A stretch of 64,000 bases of DNA from Herminiimonas contaminans (GTDB lineage: Bacteria > Pseudomonadota > Gammaproteobacteria > Burkholderiales > Burkholderiaceae_D): NCBI RefSeq assembly GCF_015645465.1, contig NZ_JADOEL010000001.1, forward strand, positions 248,001 to 312,000. The letters are read 5' to 3'. Shown in pieces: positions 57,559-63,873 of the stretch. The notes beneath the pieces are model-generated. The model did no database searches, was not told the origin of the DNA, and worked only from the letters and a program-made list of their open reading frames with translations. A program made the position numbers and the translations under genes. The first letter of the stretch is position 1, and each line of letters starts with the position of its first letter.

Positions 57559-59328
57559 TTAGTGTAAATCGCGCAACACTTCCTGCAGCATCTCGGGTGC
57601 CAAAGGCTTATGCAATATACCTAGCTGGGCGCCGGCTATGCTCTGTATGCTTTCCACCGATGTGTCACCTGTAATCACCACGGCCGGGATGGCATAGCCA
57701 CTGGCTTGTCGTACTGCCTGCACCACATCCACCCCGCTGACATTCTCCGCCAGACGGAAGTCGCTCAGAATCAGGTCAAACGCCCGTCCGCTTGCACCCT
57801 GCTGTGTCTTTGCCGCCTGCAAAGCGTCGCCCAGCGATGCCACTGCCGTAACCTGATGCCCCCAGGATAACAGCAGTAAACGCATGCTATCCAATACGGC
57901 GGCATCGTCATCTATCACCAGGATGTTTTTCGCCGCGCCGGACGATGGCGTCTGCACAGGCATGGCAGCACCCGCTGCGGCGCTTACCTGCGGTGCCAAT
58001 GGCAGCCAGACGGAAAAGACCGAGCCACGCCCCGGCATCGAACGCAGGCCTATACGTATCTTCAGCAAATCAGCCGTACGTTTGACGATGGCTAATCCCA
58101 GACCCAGGCCATGCTCACGACGACGCGCTGCATTCCCGATCTGGTAAAACTCGCTGAAGATCAGCTGCGACTGCTCGGCAGCAATACCGATACCGGTATC
58201 CAGCACCTGCACTTCTATAAACTCGCCACGCCTGCGCGCGCCGACCAATACCTTGCCACTCTCGGTATAACGCAAGGCATTCGAAACGAAATTTGCCAAT
58301 ATGCTGTGCACCAGGGCGCGATCGGTTTGTACCAGTACCGCAGTTGGTCTGACGATGAAGCGCAATTTCTGCTCAACGGCAACGGCAGAGAATTGCTGGT
58401 CTATCGTTTCCAGCAAGTCCTGCAAGTCAAATACCTCGCGCTTGACCTTGACCGCGCCGGCGTCCAGCTTGGAAATATCCAGCAACACATCCAGCAATTG
58501 CACCAGACCTTTCAGCGCCGTCTGCAATTTACCGGCGATATTGCCAACCTCTGCCCCGCTCATCGCAGGCGTGCTGCACAGCGCACGCAGAGTAGCGATG
58601 TACAAACCCAGCGCGTGCGTAGGCTGCCGCAAATCGTGGCTGGCCGCGGCAAGAAACTGTGACTTGGAACGGCTGGCAGATTCGGCCCGTTCCTTCTCCT
58701 GTCGCAGTTGCGCTATCAACTGGGTGTTTTCGAAACGCAGGGATACGGCCTCACGCACCGTGCGATGCACGTTACGGCTGTAAGCCAGATTCACGCCCAG
58801 CAAAAAAAGCGACAACAAAGCGAATACGGAAAACAGGGGGCCGCCATACATAAAGCAACGGATGGCAAATGGCAGGACAGTAGGCAGCGCAAACGCGTAA
58901 TACGCTGGCGGAAATGAAGACTGCGACGCGACTGAACCGCCGGTCATCCCGGCCAACAGGATGCAGATGAAGACCGTAACTATCGTGCTGTCAGGCGCGA
59001 AGAAGAATATCCCGATAGAACCCCACAGGCAGCCGGAAAGTCCGGCGAACGCGGTATATACCCATGCCCGTCGCTCCGCCTGGTCCGGCGTATGGACTGC
59101 GCGCAAATCGCGGCGAACGATGACTATCCGGATCAGCGTCAGGACAAAGATCGCGCTCGCCCACGATAGCAGGACGCTGTGCTGCAGCTCATTCCACAGC
59201 AGGTAAACCGAGAGGATGACAACTGAAAAATTGCCAAAAAAGATAGGAGTTGCCTGTCGGTACAGGACATTCACCAGTTCGTCGAATATGCGCGTCTCCA
59301 CTGCGGATGCAGCTGGATGATTGTTCAT
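57559..59328 (-). CDS. hybrid sensor histidine kinase with C-terminal receiver
   Basis: 589 residues. Six or seven TM segments span residues 30-190. HisKA follows with SHDLRQPTHALGLYI, HATPase with NFVSNALRYTESG, DTGIGIA and HGLGLGLAIV. A receiver at about 470-589 has IDDDAAVLDSM and the acceptor Asp in FDLILSDFRLAENVSG. The DLRQP H-box group is typically paired with LuxR-type regulators, one of which is encoded divergently 116 bases away. Signal unknown. Confidence 0.9.
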   Translation of the reverse strand: MNNHPAASAVETRIFDELVNVLYRQATPIFFGNFSVVILSVYLLWNELQHSVLLSWASAIFVLTLIRIVIVRRDLRAVHTPDQAERRAWVYTAFAGLSGCLWGSIGIFFFAPDSTIVTVFICILLAGMTGGSVASQSSFPPAYYAFALPTVLPFAIRCFMYGGPLFSVFALLSLFLLGVNLAYSRNVHRTVREAVSLRFENTQLIAQLRQEKERAESASRSKSQFLAAASHDLRQPTHALGLYIATLRALCSTPAMSGAEVGNIAGKLQTALKGLVQLLDVLLDISKLDAGAVKVKREVFDLQDLLETIDQQFSAVAVEQKLRFIVRPTAVLVQTDRALVHSILANFVSNALRYTESGKVLVGARRRGEFIEVQVLDTGIGIAAEQSQLIFSEFYQIGNAARRREHGLGLGLAIVKRTADLLKIRIGLRSMPGRGSVFSVWLPLAPQVSAAAGAAMPVQTPSSGAAKNILVIDDDAAVLDSMRLLLLSWGHQVTAVASLGDALQAAKTQQGASGRAFDLILSDFRLAENVSGVDVVQAVRQASGYAIPAVVITGDTSVESIQSIAGAQLGILHKPLAPEMLQEVLRDLH

Positions 59329-59444
59329 GAATGTCCCGCCTAAAACGAGGAAAATGGATAGCTACTGCTGCGCAGTGTAATATTTGCCTATTATTACCGT
59401 GTAACAATATAAGTCCCAGCGGAAATTATCACGCGTCCGGCACC

Positions 59445-60056
59445 ATGACTAACATCATCATTGCAGAAGATCACACCCTGATCCGCGAAGGATTACGCTC
59501 CTTGCTGGCGCACGTCGACGGCATGCAGATCATTGCGGATACCGGCAGCGGTACGCAAGTCGAGGAGCTGCTGACCCGGCACGCTGCCGATTTGCTACTA
59601 CTAGACCTCGACCTGCCCGGTTGCCACGGCATCACCCTCACCGCACGCATCAAGCAACAACATCCGCACATCAAAATCCTGATCCTGACCGGATCAACTG
59701 ATCACAATAGCGTACGCCAGGCTTTCACTGCAGGTGCTGATGGTTATCTGCTGAAACTGGAAGATAGCAGCGAATTGCTGGAAGCCATCCCCACCGTGCT
59801 GCGCAATCAACGCTACGTCAGCAAACTGCTGGGACCGCTGACGCACTTCCAGGAGCAGGAAGACCAGGCCGTCACGCCACGTGAACAACAAATCCTGAAA
59901 CTGGTCGCCGCCGGCAAATCATCACAGGAAATTGCCGATGCACTGCAACTCAGCATCTTTACCGTGCGCAAACACAAACAAAACCTGATGGCCAAATTAT
60001 CGTTGCACAACGCGGTGGAACTGACGCGTTACGCCATGCATCAGGGGCTGCTCTAA
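59445..60056 (+). CDS. LuxR/NarL-family response regulator
   Basis: Start at MTNIIIAEDHTLIREGLRSL; 38 upstream codons are not supported. 203 residues: receiver (acidic pair AEDH, acceptor Asp in LLLLDLDLPGCHGIT, Lys in YLLKLEDSSE) and C-terminal GerE helix-turn-helix (LTPREQQILKLVAAGKSSQEIADALQLSIFTVRKH region). Divergent from the hybrid kinase, its probable partner; its 3' end meets the Slam-like gene tail to tail with seven bases between, so it may control nearby genes. Confidence 0.92.
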   Translation: MTNIIIAEDHTLIREGLRSLLAHVDGMQIIADTGSGTQVEELLTRHAADLLLLDLDLPGCHGITLTARIKQQHPHIKILILTGSTDHNSVRQAFTAGADGYLLKLEDSSELLEAIPTVLRNQRYVSKLLGPLTHFQEQEDQAVTPREQQILKLVAAGKSSQEIADALQLSIFTVRKHKQNLMAKLSLHNAVELTRYAMHQGLL

Positions 60057-60063
60057 ATCACGA

Positions 60064-61413
60064 TCAGAATTGCGTCTGCACACCCACGCTGAAGATATTG
60101 CGTGAGTAATTGCTGTAGCCGATATTCGACGGATTATCGATCTGCGTATATTGCGCCCGTACCACCATATTGCGTCCCGCCCATGCACTGATGTCCCACA
60201 AGCTGGTCAGGCTGGCAGTCTTTTGTGTATCTTCACGGGCCGGGAAAAAGAAGCTGCCTTCGTCGTACTTCACCTTGGAATAACTATAGTTGCCGACTAC
60301 CGTCCATTGCGGCTTGATGCGATAGGCGGCAAACACACTAGGCCCGTCCAGGCGACGTGAGTACACCGCCGCGTCGGCATGCTCACGTTGCATATTGTAA
60401 TCAGCACCCACCTGCAAATTCGGCTGCACTTGCGCGACTACGCCGACACTGCCGAGTACGCCATCGGCGTTTCTGTTGCTATCCAAATGCACGGTGCGGT
60501 TGATATAGCCTAGCGAACCGGTCAGCGACCAGGTCGAATTCAGATTGCGCGAAACACGCGTGATCACACCAGGCGTGGTTTCATTCATGCGATTCGCCTG
60601 CCGCGAAAAACCGATATTCGGCTGTATGCTGGCACTCCAGTCCTTATCGCGATAAATGAAAGCCGCGGACAAGGACATGTATTCATTATTGAAGTCTGAC
60701 GTATCGAAGTAACCATTCCCCAGCAATACGCCCTGGAACAGCACCGACCAGCGTTCATTCAGTGGCACCAGATAGCTGCCTGTCAGGCTGCCGCTGGCAC
60801 CCCATGAAGAACGTGGCATCGCATCGGGCGACAAAACGAAGTTACCCGGAAAGCCGCCAACCATCGCAGGAATGATATTCGACACCGGCCCGCCATTGAT
60901 ATTGCTGTCATGCACCAGCCCGGCATAGAACTCCAGTGACCACGGTTTGCCTGATGCCTGGCGCGCAAATGCAGCGGGGTCGTCACGTCCCAGTTGCTCG
61001 ATCAGGTTACTCATCTGGGTCGATACCTGCCCGGCTGGCAACAGGGGCAAGGTTTGCTTGTATAGCTGTGCCGCTTCATCCTTGCGATCCAGCGCAACCA
61101 TGATCGCCGCCAGTTCCACCCGCGGATTTGCTTCTGCCGGTTTCAAAGCGATCACGCGCTGATAGTAGACAATCGCCGTGTCTATCCGCTGCAAGGATGC
61201 ATTGCAACGCGCCAGCACATACAGGCGATCTGCATCCACACTGTTTACAGACGTATCTTCCAGCAATGCACATGCCATATCCGGCCTGCCGTTTTCCTGC
61301 ATCAAACGCGCGACCAATAATTCATTCCGACCATCGACTGCAGGGGTCGCAGCGTAAGCGACGGAAGAGGACAACATCAATACGACGACAAGCGAACGGA
61401 GCATATGATTCAT
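60064..61413 (-). CDS. Slam-like outer-membrane protein (N-terminal TPRs, DUF560-type barrel)
   Basis: Start chosen at MNHMLRSLVVVLML for a normal signal peptide (ending AYAA); an upstream ATG at 61446, four bases after the partner's stop, would allow coupling. 449 residues: TPR-like helices at about 30-145 (AIVYYQRVIALKPAEANPRVELA), then a C-terminal barrel beginning WSLEFYAGLVHDSNINGGP, the Slam/DUF560 hallmark, and ending in an outer-membrane Phe (VGVQTQF). Slam proteins move substrates with TbpB-like barrels across the outer membrane. The gene directly upstream encodes such a candidate. Confidence 0.82.
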   Translation of the reverse strand: MNHMLRSLVVVLMLSSSVAYAATPAVDGRNELLVARLMQENGRPDMACALLEDTSVNSVDADRLYVLARCNASLQRIDTAIVYYQRVIALKPAEANPRVELAAIMVALDRKDEAAQLYKQTLPLLPAGQVSTQMSNLIEQLGRDDPAAFARQASGKPWSLEFYAGLVHDSNINGGPVSNIIPAMVGGFPGNFVLSPDAMPRSSWGASGSLTGSYLVPLNERWSVLFQGVLLGNGYFDTSDFNNEYMSLSAAFIYRDKDWSASIQPNIGFSRQANRMNETTPGVITRVSRNLNSTWSLTGSLGYINRTVHLDSNRNADGVLGSVGVVAQVQPNLQVGADYNMQREHADAAVYSRRLDGPSVFAAYRIKPQWTVVGNYSYSKVKYDEGSFFFPAREDTQKTASLTSLWDISAWAGRNMVVRAQYTQIDNPSNIGYSNYSRNIFSVGVQTQF

Positions 61414-61450
61414 GGATGAAATGGGTAGGGAGTAAATATCTGGCATGACA

Positions 61451-63337
61451 TCAACGTGTAGCAGCAAAGCTACCGCCGCCACTTACGCTATTCGTCGTCA
61501 TATCCCAGGAACCTTTGACTGCGTTAGCAGCCGGGCCAAAGAATTGTCCGTTCCGGATAAAGCCATTCATGGCTGCACCGTTATACGTGCCATTCATGCC
61601 ACCGCCTACATATCCGCCGATGTAAGCGACACTATTAAAGCTCGCACTGCCTTTGTTATTGTCGAACTGGACGTTGCCGCCTATCGGTGTGCCATTGCCT
61701 ATATTGGCAAAGTTGACGTTCATGGTCAGGTTAGCGCCGACTGCCGAACTATCGCTCAGGGTTCCGGTCATGCGGCCATTGAAAGTTGCGTTCAGATTGG
61801 TGGGGAAATTCGCACGCGGTGTGACCACGGTATATTCAGTGCCCATTGTCACTGCGTTTGCCAGCGCAATATTGTTTGCACTGCTGGATGCTGCAATGGC
61901 AGCCGCCTGCGCAGCAGCTAAAGCTGCCTGTATGGCAGTGAGTCCTCCGCTTGTGATGCCGGCTATACCCGTTGCCACAACAGCTCCACCAGGCGGAGCG
62001 ACGATCTGCTCGACTGGCCGGATTGCGCCCAGTACAGGAACCTCGCCGTTAAACAGTGATGCAGCCGGTTTAACAGTCGGATTCATGGAGCCGAGTTTTG
62101 TGATTAACTTATCCAAGTCTTCCTGATTCACTTTTTCTTTGCTGAATGCCGCCAGCAATGCAAGGAAATCCACCGAAGATTTCTTGTCATCGGAAACCAC
62201 GGTGATCGTTTGCTTGCCGAGGCCCTCTATCGTGCCGATAGTCTGCGCTCCAGTCAGCTCACCCCAGGGCGAGCTCGGCATGTCAGAAAAGGTACCACCC
62301 GAGTTGGCCGCCAGATCCTTCAGCTTGTTCGCAATCATCGCGAATTGCGTGCGCGTCATTGTTGCATCCGGAACCAGTGTCCCGTCGCTGCCGGCAGAGA
62401 AGACACCTGCTTCCAGCAGCTTTTGATACTTCTCCTGCACGGTGCTTGCGGGAGATACCGGCGTCGCAGCTGGCAAGCTGGTTTGCTTGATCGGTAAAAT
62501 TTGTTTGGGCTGTTCCAGCACCGGCTTTTCGACTTGTTTGATTTCTTCTTTTAATTGCTGCTGTTGTGTTTTTTCCAGCAGTTTTTGTTGCTCCAGTTGC
62601 TGTGTCAACAGTAATTGTTTTTGTTGCTCAAGCGTCGGCCTCTCCACTTGCTTGATTTGTTCTTTGGTCTGCTCAGCTTGAACTTGCTCGAGCTGCTTTT
62701 TTTGCTCCAACTGCTGCGTCAATAAGAATTGCTTCTGCTGTTCAGGCGTCAGCGTCTCAGTCTTCCTGATTTCTTCCTTAAGCTGCTCTTGCTGCTGCAA
62801 AGTCTTGGACGGCAACTTTTGCTGCTCCATTGTCAGCTGTTCAGTTTTCTTCACTTCTTCCGGCACAGTCTGTTGCTGCGTCATTTCAGCCTGCGGCGCC
62901 GACATCAATTGCCTGCGCTGCTCCAGTGTTAACTCCTGCGGCTGAGGTTGCAGTGTGACTTCCTGCTGCTTGGTCTGGGACTGCATGTAGCCCAGGATCT
63001 GCTGTCTTTCCTCCGGCGTATACGTCTTGCTCAACAAGATGTCCCGCCCTGCAGGCGTAAGATTCTTCAGCATATTCGTGATACGCAACAATGTGCTGTC
63101 GGATAAAGGTATCGGCGTCTGCTGAGCACCCGACTGCTGTCCTCCTTGTTGTCCAGGAGGCTGCTTCTGCATGGCACGCCCCAGATCGACATCGATACCT
63201 TGCACATCTTGCGCTTGGACCGGCTCGACATGCGTGGCTACGAGTGTCAACAAGACAGAAGCAGCACAACACAGCCCCCATGTCTGCCGTAGCGGCATAA
63301 GCGGGTGGTACTTATATATAGAGGTAAATGAGTGCAT
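61451..63337 (-). CDS. exported Gln-rich repeat protein with TbpB-like C-terminal barrel, candidate Slam substrate
   Basis: Start at MHSFTSIYKYHPL, with GGGAG six bases upstream; 628 residues. Signal peptide to about 43 (VEPVQAQ, signal peptidase I type; no lipobox). Residues 44-186 are Gln-rich; 187-286 hold two full and one partial 38-residue Gln/Glu repeat (TLEQQKQLLLTQQLEQQK). An SLH-like segment is at 305-345 (AGVFSAGSDGTLVPDATMTR). An Ala-rich helix at 467-490 leads to a C-terminal domain (about 505-628) with strand-rich repeats and FFGPAANAVKGSWDM, the GxxFGPxAxxxxG tail of TbpB/Slam-type barrels. Same strand as the Slam gene, 37 bases before it. Function unknown. Confidence 0.75.
   Translation of the reverse strand: MHSFTSIYKYHPLMPLRQTWGLCCAASVLLTLVATHVEPVQAQDVQGIDVDLGRAMQKQPPGQQGGQQSGAQQTPIPLSDSTLLRITNMLKNLTPAGRDILLSKTYTPEERQQILGYMQSQTKQQEVTLQPQPQELTLEQRRQLMSAPQAEMTQQQTVPEEVKKTEQLTMEQQKLPSKTLQQQEQLKEEIRKTETLTPEQQKQFLLTQQLEQKKQLEQVQAEQTKEQIKQVERPTLEQQKQLLLTQQLEQQKLLEKTQQQQLKEEIKQVEKPVLEQPKQILPIKQTSLPAATPVSPASTVQEKYQKLLEAGVFSAGSDGTLVPDATMTRTQFAMIANKLKDLAANSGGTFSDMPSSPWGELTGAQTIGTIEGLGKQTITVVSDDKKSSVDFLALLAAFSKEKVNQEDLDKLITKLGSMNPTVKPAASLFNGEVPVLGAIRPVEQIVAPPGGAVVATGIAGITSGGLTAIQAALAAAQAAAIAASSSANNIALANAVTMGTEYTVVTPRANFPTNLNATFNGRMTGTLSDSSAVGANLTMNVNFANIGNGTPIGGNVQFDNNKGSASFNSVAYIGGYVGGGMNGTYNGAAMNGFIRNGQFFGPAANAVKGSWDMTTNSVSGGGSFAATR
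62480..62779 (-). repeat. 114-base tandem repeat in the Slam-substrate candidate gene
   Basis: Two in-frame units of 38 codons (62666-62779 and 62552-62665) plus a partial third (62480-62551) encode KEEIRKTETLTPEQQKQFLL-type Gln/Glu-rich sequence; a degenerate earlier unit lies just 5' of them. Such repeats can change number by slippage. Confidence 0.8.
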
Positions 63338-63639
63338 GTGCTTCTCCCGTGGCAGGCCGTATATAGAAACGGCTAATGGCGGCGAGAATAGCAATCGACT
63401 TGCCGGGAGTAAATACTGCAAATGCAGTAGTCGGACGCGACCAGAGGTGACGGCAAGGGATCAAAATTCGTCACGAATTCTTAACGATATCGTCACGCAA
63501 ATCACATGATTTTCACTCTGAAAATGATTTCAAAATATTTGTGTAATCGCGTCAACCGCATTAATTGGCTGGCGTTATATACGTACGAACTGACTAAGCA
63601 GTTCGCAAAATTTCCTAATACTTTAGAGAGAGCACTCAA
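63338..63639. other. 302-base divergent promoter region
   Basis: AT-rich, between the Slam-substrate gene (minus) and the Ala/Lys-rich gene (plus). Contains no ORF with support. GAGAGAG at 63626-63632 is the ribosome site for the right-hand gene; TTATAT at 63575-63580 might be its -10. No Fur-box-like 19-base palindrome was recognised. Confidence 0.4.
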
Positions 63640-63873
63640 ATGAATAAATTAATCGCTGCCCTGGTTGCCGGTCTGTTTGCCTCCACCGTTTTCGCACAAG
63701 CTGCTGCTCCAGCACCTGCTGCTGCCCCAGCTCCAGTAGCTGCAAAAACAGAAGCTGCAGCCCCAGCTAAAGCAACCAAAACACACGCTAAAAAACACAA
63801 AAAAGCTAAGAAAGCAAAAGCAGCGACTCCTGCAGCAGCACCTGCAGCAGCAGCGCCTGCAGCAGCTAAGTAA
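63640..63873 (+). CDS. small exported Ala/Pro/Lys-rich protein
   Basis: 77 residues. Signal peptide MNKLIAALVAGLFASTVFAQ, then low-complexity AAPAPAAAPAPV and a basic centre KTHAKKHKKAKKAKAA with an Ala/Pro tail. GAGAGAG lies eight bases before the ATG. The composition resembles acid-shock (Asr-like) and histone-H1-tail-like proteins, but similarity is compositional only, and the function is unknown. Two strong terminators follow. Probably monocistronic and well expressed. Confidence 0.7.
   Translation: MNKLIAALVAGLFASTVFAQAAAPAPAAAPAPVAAKTEAAAPAKATKTHAKKHKKAKKAKAATPAAAPAAAAPAAAK

Follow-up and report, generated by a model that had tools for sequence, protein, structure and literature searches.

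The stretch of DNA analysed here, called the window throughout, is a 64,000-nucleotide segment of Herminiimonas contaminans (G000:C1:248001-312000, part of a 4.0 Mb assembly), and it carries two adjoining minus-strand genes that we read as a type 11 secretion system (T11SS) unit: a gene for an outer-membrane protein (OMP) and, upstream of it, a gene for an exported protein regarded as its cargo, with 37 bases between the cargo stop codon and the OMP start (Table 1). The original prediction, made from the letters of the window, had taken the first for a TPR/DUF560-type barrel gene with the hallmark HDSNIN, and this is confirmed: HDSNIN is present, and a search of 61413-60064 against Slam/DUF560 models gave a match to Pfam SlipAM (PF04575) well above its cutoff (E 5e-13, 49.6 bits, cutoff 22) that covers the model completely (1-288 of 288). 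At E values up to 0.001 this gene is the only one in the window's genome to match PF04575. In front of the barrel, several Pfam TPR models match OMP residues 60-125, each under its own cutoff, the TPR_Slam model matches weakly (E 0.022), and a profile search with the OMP reached TPR structures down to 9e-14. Judged by its sequence, the OMP is a full-length Slam/DUF560 (T11SS) barrel, and from its family it would be expected to carry the cargo across the outer membrane.

Table 1. Features of the export locus, its candidate control region and its linked regulators (window positions)
Feature	Coordinates	Strand	Detail or basis
Cargo gene	61451..63337	-	ATG at 63337, 628 aa; apparent Sec signal peptide, Gln-rich, SLH-like, Ala-rich, C-terminal TbpB-like barrel
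114-base (38-residue) tandem repeat, Gln-rich region	62583..62788	-	Lag identities and Tandem Repeats Finder
SLH-like module, about residues 293-352	62282..62461	-	Four-orthologue profile, E 8e-9; Pfam sub-threshold
C-terminal barrel, about residues 516-625	61463..61792	-	Profile, AlphaFold2 model, Foldseek
T11SS OMP gene (Slam/DUF560, SlipAM barrel with TPR front)	60064..61413	-	ATG at 61413, 449 aa
Palindrome TACTGCATTTGCAGTA, candidate operator	63414..63429	.	Alignment of cargo upstream regions
Candidate promoter: -35-like TTTACT abutting palindrome, 17-base spacer, -10-like TATTCT	63385..63413	-	Match score
LuxR-type response regulator	59331..60056, likely true start about 59445	+	Response_reg 6e-27, GerE 1e-17
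Hybrid sensor kinase (HisKA, HATPase, receiver), NahK/ErcS-like	57559..59328	-	Domain matches

The cargo is a composite protein. A Sec signal peptide is apparent by eye in all 11 cargo homologues, in which cysteines are confined to the N-terminal signal region (11/11) and no lipobox was seen by eye (n = 11), in agreement with the proposal that the cargo is not lipidated. The 38-residue repeats proposed for its Gln-rich region are likewise borne out, a lag of 38 giving 49 identities in 122 positions, the highest among lags 20-59, and Tandem Repeats Finder reporting a period of 114 bases with 1.8 copies in the cargo gene. For the SLH-like segment, a profile of four Herminiimonas cargo orthologues matched SLH structures of S-layer glycoproteins (E 8e-9 to 3e-8), followed by armadillo-repeat designs at E 0.004; the window cargo taken singly falls just short of the Pfam cutoff (E 0.001, 19.4 bits, cutoff 20.8), its orthologues in G002 and G010 gave no Pfam SLH match, and the family scores above cutoff in one of the 13 genomes of the genus, and then only when the neighbours of the reading frame are added. 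An Ala-rich helix is predicted at very low confidence at residues 463-497. The AlphaFold2 model of the full-length cargo had a mean predicted local distance difference test score (pLDDT) of 44 and was kept out of fold searches.

At its C-terminal end the cargo carries the tail FFGPAANAVKGSW, as expected of Slam-dependent TbpB-like barrels, and a small beta barrel had been proposed for residues 505-628. An AlphaFold2 model of residues 485-628 shows eight strands, one of only three residues (pLDDT 68, predicted template modelling score 0.64), and a Foldseek search with it returned TbpB, NHBA, HphA/hemophilin or LbpB among nine of the top 11 matches (probability 0.90-1.00, template modelling score 0.35-0.47). 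A profile of eight barrel homologues ranked TbpB and GNA2132/NHBA at the top (best E 0.0017), and the Pfam model TbpB_B_D stayed under its cutoff on the window cargo (E 0.096).

The pair was surveyed in 392 genomes of the family. With an E value of up to 1e-15 for membership, the OMP subfamily occurs in 10 of these, all Herminiimonas or Herbaspirillum, and the cargo barrel occurs in the same 10, adjoining the OMP in each. Family match, fold and this strict co-occurrence support the view of a Slam relative beside a non-lipidated, TbpB-tailed cargo. In a further genome, G153, a lipoprotein-like protein gave a weak cargo-barrel match (E 4e-4) without an OMP of this subfamily; the gene in question (L064:7662-9236) has a lipobox by eye and a sub-threshold match to a 'Slam-dependent surface lipoprotein' model (33.7 of 80 bits), and photosynthesis-type genes were recognized by eye around it. 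A wider PF04575 search found matches in 13 of 245 genomes, 10 of them above cutoff, including a separate DUF560 group that adjoins FecR-domain proteins, identified by Pfam FecR at L028:7251-10142 and L032:6929-9911 and by eye at L033:5919-8404 and L036:6928-11586. The L028 and L032 proteins end in a G-x-F-A-G tail that by eye resembles T11SS cargo barrels, and they may represent a further cargo class; directly upstream of the L032 pair, in the window's genus, lies an open reading frame (ORF) of 1783 aa that looks haemagglutinin-like by eye (L032:1532-6883; no Pfam match at 0.05).

Across the homologues the barrel and the OMP stay conserved and the N-terminal part of the cargo varies. Between the window and G011 cargos identity is 91% in the C-terminal 139 residues, 60% in the SLH-like stretch and 72% overall. 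The cargo of Herminiimonas fonticola (G010) lacks the Gln-rich part, and the aligned Herbaspirillum cargos keep the Gln-rich part and lack the SLH-like module. The SLH module was accordingly rejected as an anchor for all members, since it was seen in no cargos other than the four from Herminiimonas, apart from a by-eye remnant in G275. In the Herbaspirillum genome G200 two tandem cargo genes with differing N-terminal parts precede a single OMP gene (L029:3911-6810). The original prediction had described the cargo as a soluble or cell-surface scaffold; the Slam relative and the non-lipidated cargo stand, and a scaffold in particular finds no specific support, as the Gln-rich part is missing from H. 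fonticola and the SLH-like module from the aligned Herbaspirillum cargos.

The regulator and the hybrid kinase of Table 1 flank 10 of 10 pairs. Five Herbaspirillum loci have the regulator followed by cargo and OMP in the same direction; the orientation is reversed in G275 and in the four loci of Herminiimonas, where the pair runs against the regulator and the linkage is nevertheless kept. In G275, a genome assigned to the genus Herbaspirillum, all four genes are Herminiimonas-like (74-80% identity to the window's genes versus 45-60% to those of other Herbaspirillum) and their surroundings differ, and the four genes therefore appear to have travelled together. The Herminiimonas genome G001 keeps the regulator, the kinase and both flanks and lacks the pair; its intergenic stretch aligns to the region upstream of the window cargo (63374-63640) with 75% identity over 271 columns and retains the palindrome described below with one mismatch, so that the simplest reading of the alignment would be a loss of the pair in this genome. 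A gamma-glutamyltransferase (named by eye), a diguanylate cyclase and a major facilitator superfamily (MFS) neighbour were rejected as partners, all of them remaining in G001 without the pair. Divergent from the cargo, the window also encodes a small Ala/Lys-rich, exported-looking protein (63640-63873, plus strand; 77 aa, by eye), the reading frame of which persists beside the emptied G001 site (L066). In the Herbaspirillum genome G171 the place that the T11SS pair has next to this kinase and regulator in other Herbaspirillum is taken by a TpsB/TpsA pair, which is oppositely oriented and has the palindrome upstream of TpsB; one export pair for surface proteins seems to substitute for the other here. 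The kinase of G096 sits near a FecR-domain protein.

A palindrome of the form TACTGCA-NN-TGCAGTA is present in all 10 aligned cargo upstream regions. Both tandem cargos of G200 carry one of their own, and in H. fonticola it has two changes that keep the symmetry. The exact sequence TACTRCANNTGYAGTA was found in 18 of the 392 genomes, 12 of 13 that bear the kinase (E up to 1e-120, at most three candidates per genome scored) versus 6 of 379 others, a distribution with a Fisher value of 1e-17 when related genomes are treated as independent; none of seven chosen kinase-free genomes contained it (0/7), and in the 13 kinase-bearing genomes a reversed control pattern occurred 7 times versus 19 exact palindromes. 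Promoter elements beside these sites were sought by simple scoring of matches at 12 offsets and with three spacers, done only towards the assigned gene for 18 of the 19 exact sites, both ways for G275:C78, and in a single orientation for the one-mismatch sites G001:3246331 and G096:C42. At all 19 exact sites in kinase-bearing genomes the best -35 element touches the palindrome and is followed by a 17-base spacer, a layout expected at 4% per orientation in uniform random sequence; in 18 cases it is directed at the assigned gene, whose start codon is 61-115 bases away, and in one case at a contig end. The exact sites in kinase-free genomes show this layout in neither orientation (0/7), five of the seven lying inside called ORFs, and the one-mismatch sites in the seven chosen kinase-free genomes lack it as well (0/5).

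Cargo promoters account for 11 of the 19 exact sites. Of the other eight, seven lead into type V genes: autotransporters in four genomes (G001, G002, G200 and G275), TpsB/TpsA in two (G171 and G269), and in G171 also an inverse autotransporter with an autotransporter behind it. The eighth, G275:C78, faces a contig end, and a cupin/JmjC gene close to it was dismissed as the target, the promoter layout pointing to the contig end instead; genes of a related Cupin_8/JmjC type occur next to the OMP gene in G335 (L063:6674-7651) and next to the palindrome in G275 (L089:294-1469), and their link to the cargo is at most tentative. Six one-mismatch sites also have a -35 element at offset 0, three with 16-base and three with 17-base spacers. 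One is the emptied G001 site, and the other five precede autotransporters (G275, G001), TpsB/TpsA (G001, G011) and a locus of the window's own genome at C3:123037, where genes for a TolC-type OEP, for HlyD proteins, for an M50/HlyD protein and for a giant DUF4347/Ig-repeat protein follow (about 111260-123052; L106, L113). This locus reads as one for an exported surface protein; no ABC transporter gene was identified in the stretch, and the label 'type I' would be a guess. In all 12 readable cases, the non-cargo sites with the layout precede surface-export genes.

Taken together, these observations lead us to read the pair as a T11SS unit with a non-lipidated cargo that has a role in adhesion or biofilm formation and is switched by the adjacent regulators through the palindrome, a reading to which we assign a probability of roughly 0.7. 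The cargo would cross the inner membrane by the Sec route, as its apparent signal peptide suggests, and then pass the DUF560 barrel guided by its own C-terminal TbpB-like barrel, as family knowledge would have it, and would finally reside at the cell surface or within the matrix around it, with no lipid to anchor it. The Gln-rich region could be a fast-changing spacer or a region of self-association, and the SLH-like module of the Herminiimonas cargos may bind envelope or matrix polysaccharide. Given the distribution and the layout of the palindrome, the hybrid kinase and the LuxR-type regulator may activate the gene through this site beside the -35 box, and the same regulator would command type Va, Vb and Ve adhesins and the giant surface protein near the TolC/HlyD genes. 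Because the regulator would thus be shared with adhesins, attachment or biofilm formation is the most likely purpose of the cargo. This company of adhesins, as deduced from sequence, is the main argument for the putative function of the cargo, and the common promoter signal favours a function as an adhesin or in the matrix over one as a scaffold; the cargo is probably an adhesive, non-lipidated T11SS protein of the surface or matrix. A broader proposal, which we consider somewhat better than evenly balanced, is that one kinase and regulator command interchangeable adhesins of types Va, Ve, Vb and 11 together with a TolC/HlyD-type route through one operator-promoter layout, the T11SS displaying a Gln-rich, SLH-bearing adhesin, and that the regulators and the pair move between genera as a unit.

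Several observations weigh against this interpretation. Once a single mismatch is tolerated, the palindrome occurs no more often than the reversed control (4 versus 6 in the window's own genome), and the promoter layout is therefore needed as a filter; 17 of the 23 one-mismatch sites in kinase-bearing genomes lack the -35 element at that position, 13 of these 17 lying inside called ORFs. G096 bears the kinase and has no exact site, the window's genome has a single exact site, the genomes are related, and the 11 cargo promoters do not count as independent cases. On the side of the barrel, the TbpB_B_D match is below cutoff in 10 of 10 scanned cargos (that of G011 not among them), all Foldseek E values are at least 0.02, and the beta 'pedestal' ahead of the barrel is not predicted in a model that falls below pLDDT 50 at residues 264-511.

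Other explanations can be set against the same evidence. The palindrome could be read by a different regulator, with the linked kinase and regulator mere passengers, in which case the adhesin link would stand and two-component control would fall. The exact palindromes in 6 of 379 kinase-free genomes, together with G096, would fit such an arrangement; nevertheless, the 12 of 13 kinase-bearing genomes with the site, the absence of the promoter layout from all seven sites in kinase-free genomes, and the persistence of the regulator linkage through inversion, transfer and TpsB/TpsA replacement make it unlikely in our estimation. It is also conceivable that the cargo stays in the envelope, its SLH-like module tying it to the wall and its barrel only touching the OMP. 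In other diderms, SLH modules act from the periplasm to bind polymers of the wall, and Pfam PS_pyruv_trans genes are present in 12 of 13 genomes of the genus. These pyruvyl transferases are, however, equally present in genomes without the pair, and the aligned Herbaspirillum cargos have no SLH-like module. T11SS cargos with such a barrel were exported in the tested cases, as far as the accessible text of PMC12282271 reports. An envelope-bound cargo has in our view only a slim chance of being correct.

A role in nutrient uptake, with the cargo a metal or haem capture protein of the hemophilin/TbpB kind, would accord with the resemblance of the barrel to HphA and TbpB and with the best known T11SS cargos, which capture metal or haem (PMC12282271 and PMC8406197, as accessible). 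The promoter signal, however, is common to type V adhesins and not to iron genes, the cargo has long Gln-rich repeats, and the model, at low confidence, contains no handle domain; nor was support found for a haemophore role, the neighbourhoods having been read for receptor genes by eye only. We therefore regard nutrient capture as quite improbable. Scarcely credible is an OMP of the EpsL type, that is, an exopolysaccharide porin with a neighbour unrelated to export: a weak match to the NCBIfam EpsL model (37 bits, with the cutoff at 275) has to be set against the full-length SlipAM match above cutoff and a TbpB-barrel neighbour that co-occurs in 10 of 10 genomes.

The cargo shares features with several known proteins. 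NHBA/GNA2132 has a like C-terminal barrel by profile and fold and lacks an SLH-like module, unlike the cargo; it is a lipoprotein with an Arg-rich region and a disordered N-terminal part, which we count as a likeness. The cargo profile can be aligned over about 59 residues, including a TRAQ-type motif, with S-layer SLH domains (PDB 6cwr, 6cwc, 6cwm), but in contrast to S-layer proteins the cargo appears to have one SLH-like module, with a second at most partial, and belongs to a putative T11SS of a diderm. The kinase resembles NahK/ErcS-type kinases (NCBIfam NF041832) in its core and receiver (1-369 of 370, 338 bits) but remains below the family cutoff of 400 and is linked here to surface-protein export genes.

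T11SS with lipidated and with soluble cargos have already been described (PMC8406197, PMC12282271, PMC11022072, in their accessible parts). According to the text available of PMC8406197, HrpB of Xenorhabdus nematophila, from the second DUF560 subfamily, likewise combines a TPR-fronted barrel with a non-lipidated TbpB-barrel cargo encoded by an adjacent gene; in the present system, by contrast, a Gln-rich/SLH-like part replaces the haem handle, and a linked two-component pair and a candidate operator shared with type V adhesins are added. The Pls-like cargo of TepS in Haemophilus parahaemolyticus also joins a repeat-rich N-terminal part to a C-terminal barrel, its export was shown to depend on the T11SS OMP, and the Pls repeats of S. 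aureus have been linked to biofilm; these Pls-like cargos, however, have EEARKA helix repeats and are mostly lipidated, unlike the Gln-rich 38-residue repeats and missing lipobox found here (PMC12282271, accessible text). The layout had been called unlike that of described Slam cargos, and Gln-rich part, SLH-like module and barrel are indeed not combined in any of the about ten cargo architectures given in the accessible part of Grossman et al. (2025; PMC12282271), the main text of which, to the same extent, makes no mention of SLH, S-layer, glutamine or two-component. In the literature covered, from which most subscription journals are absent and which was available in part, we recognized no description of this pair, of an SLH-bearing T11SS cargo or of a T11SS in a two-component adhesin regulon, and the regulatory setting of the pair appears to be undescribed.

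In summary, the experimentally verified T11SS OMPs all come from an animal-associated cluster, as stated in the accessible text of Grossman et al. (2025; PMC12282271), and with the present locus an environmental T11SS gains a cargo, a likely regulator, a candidate operator and a testable role in attachment. One promoter signal would tie the T11SS to type V adhesins, and the shortness of the candidate operator allows scans for the regulon.

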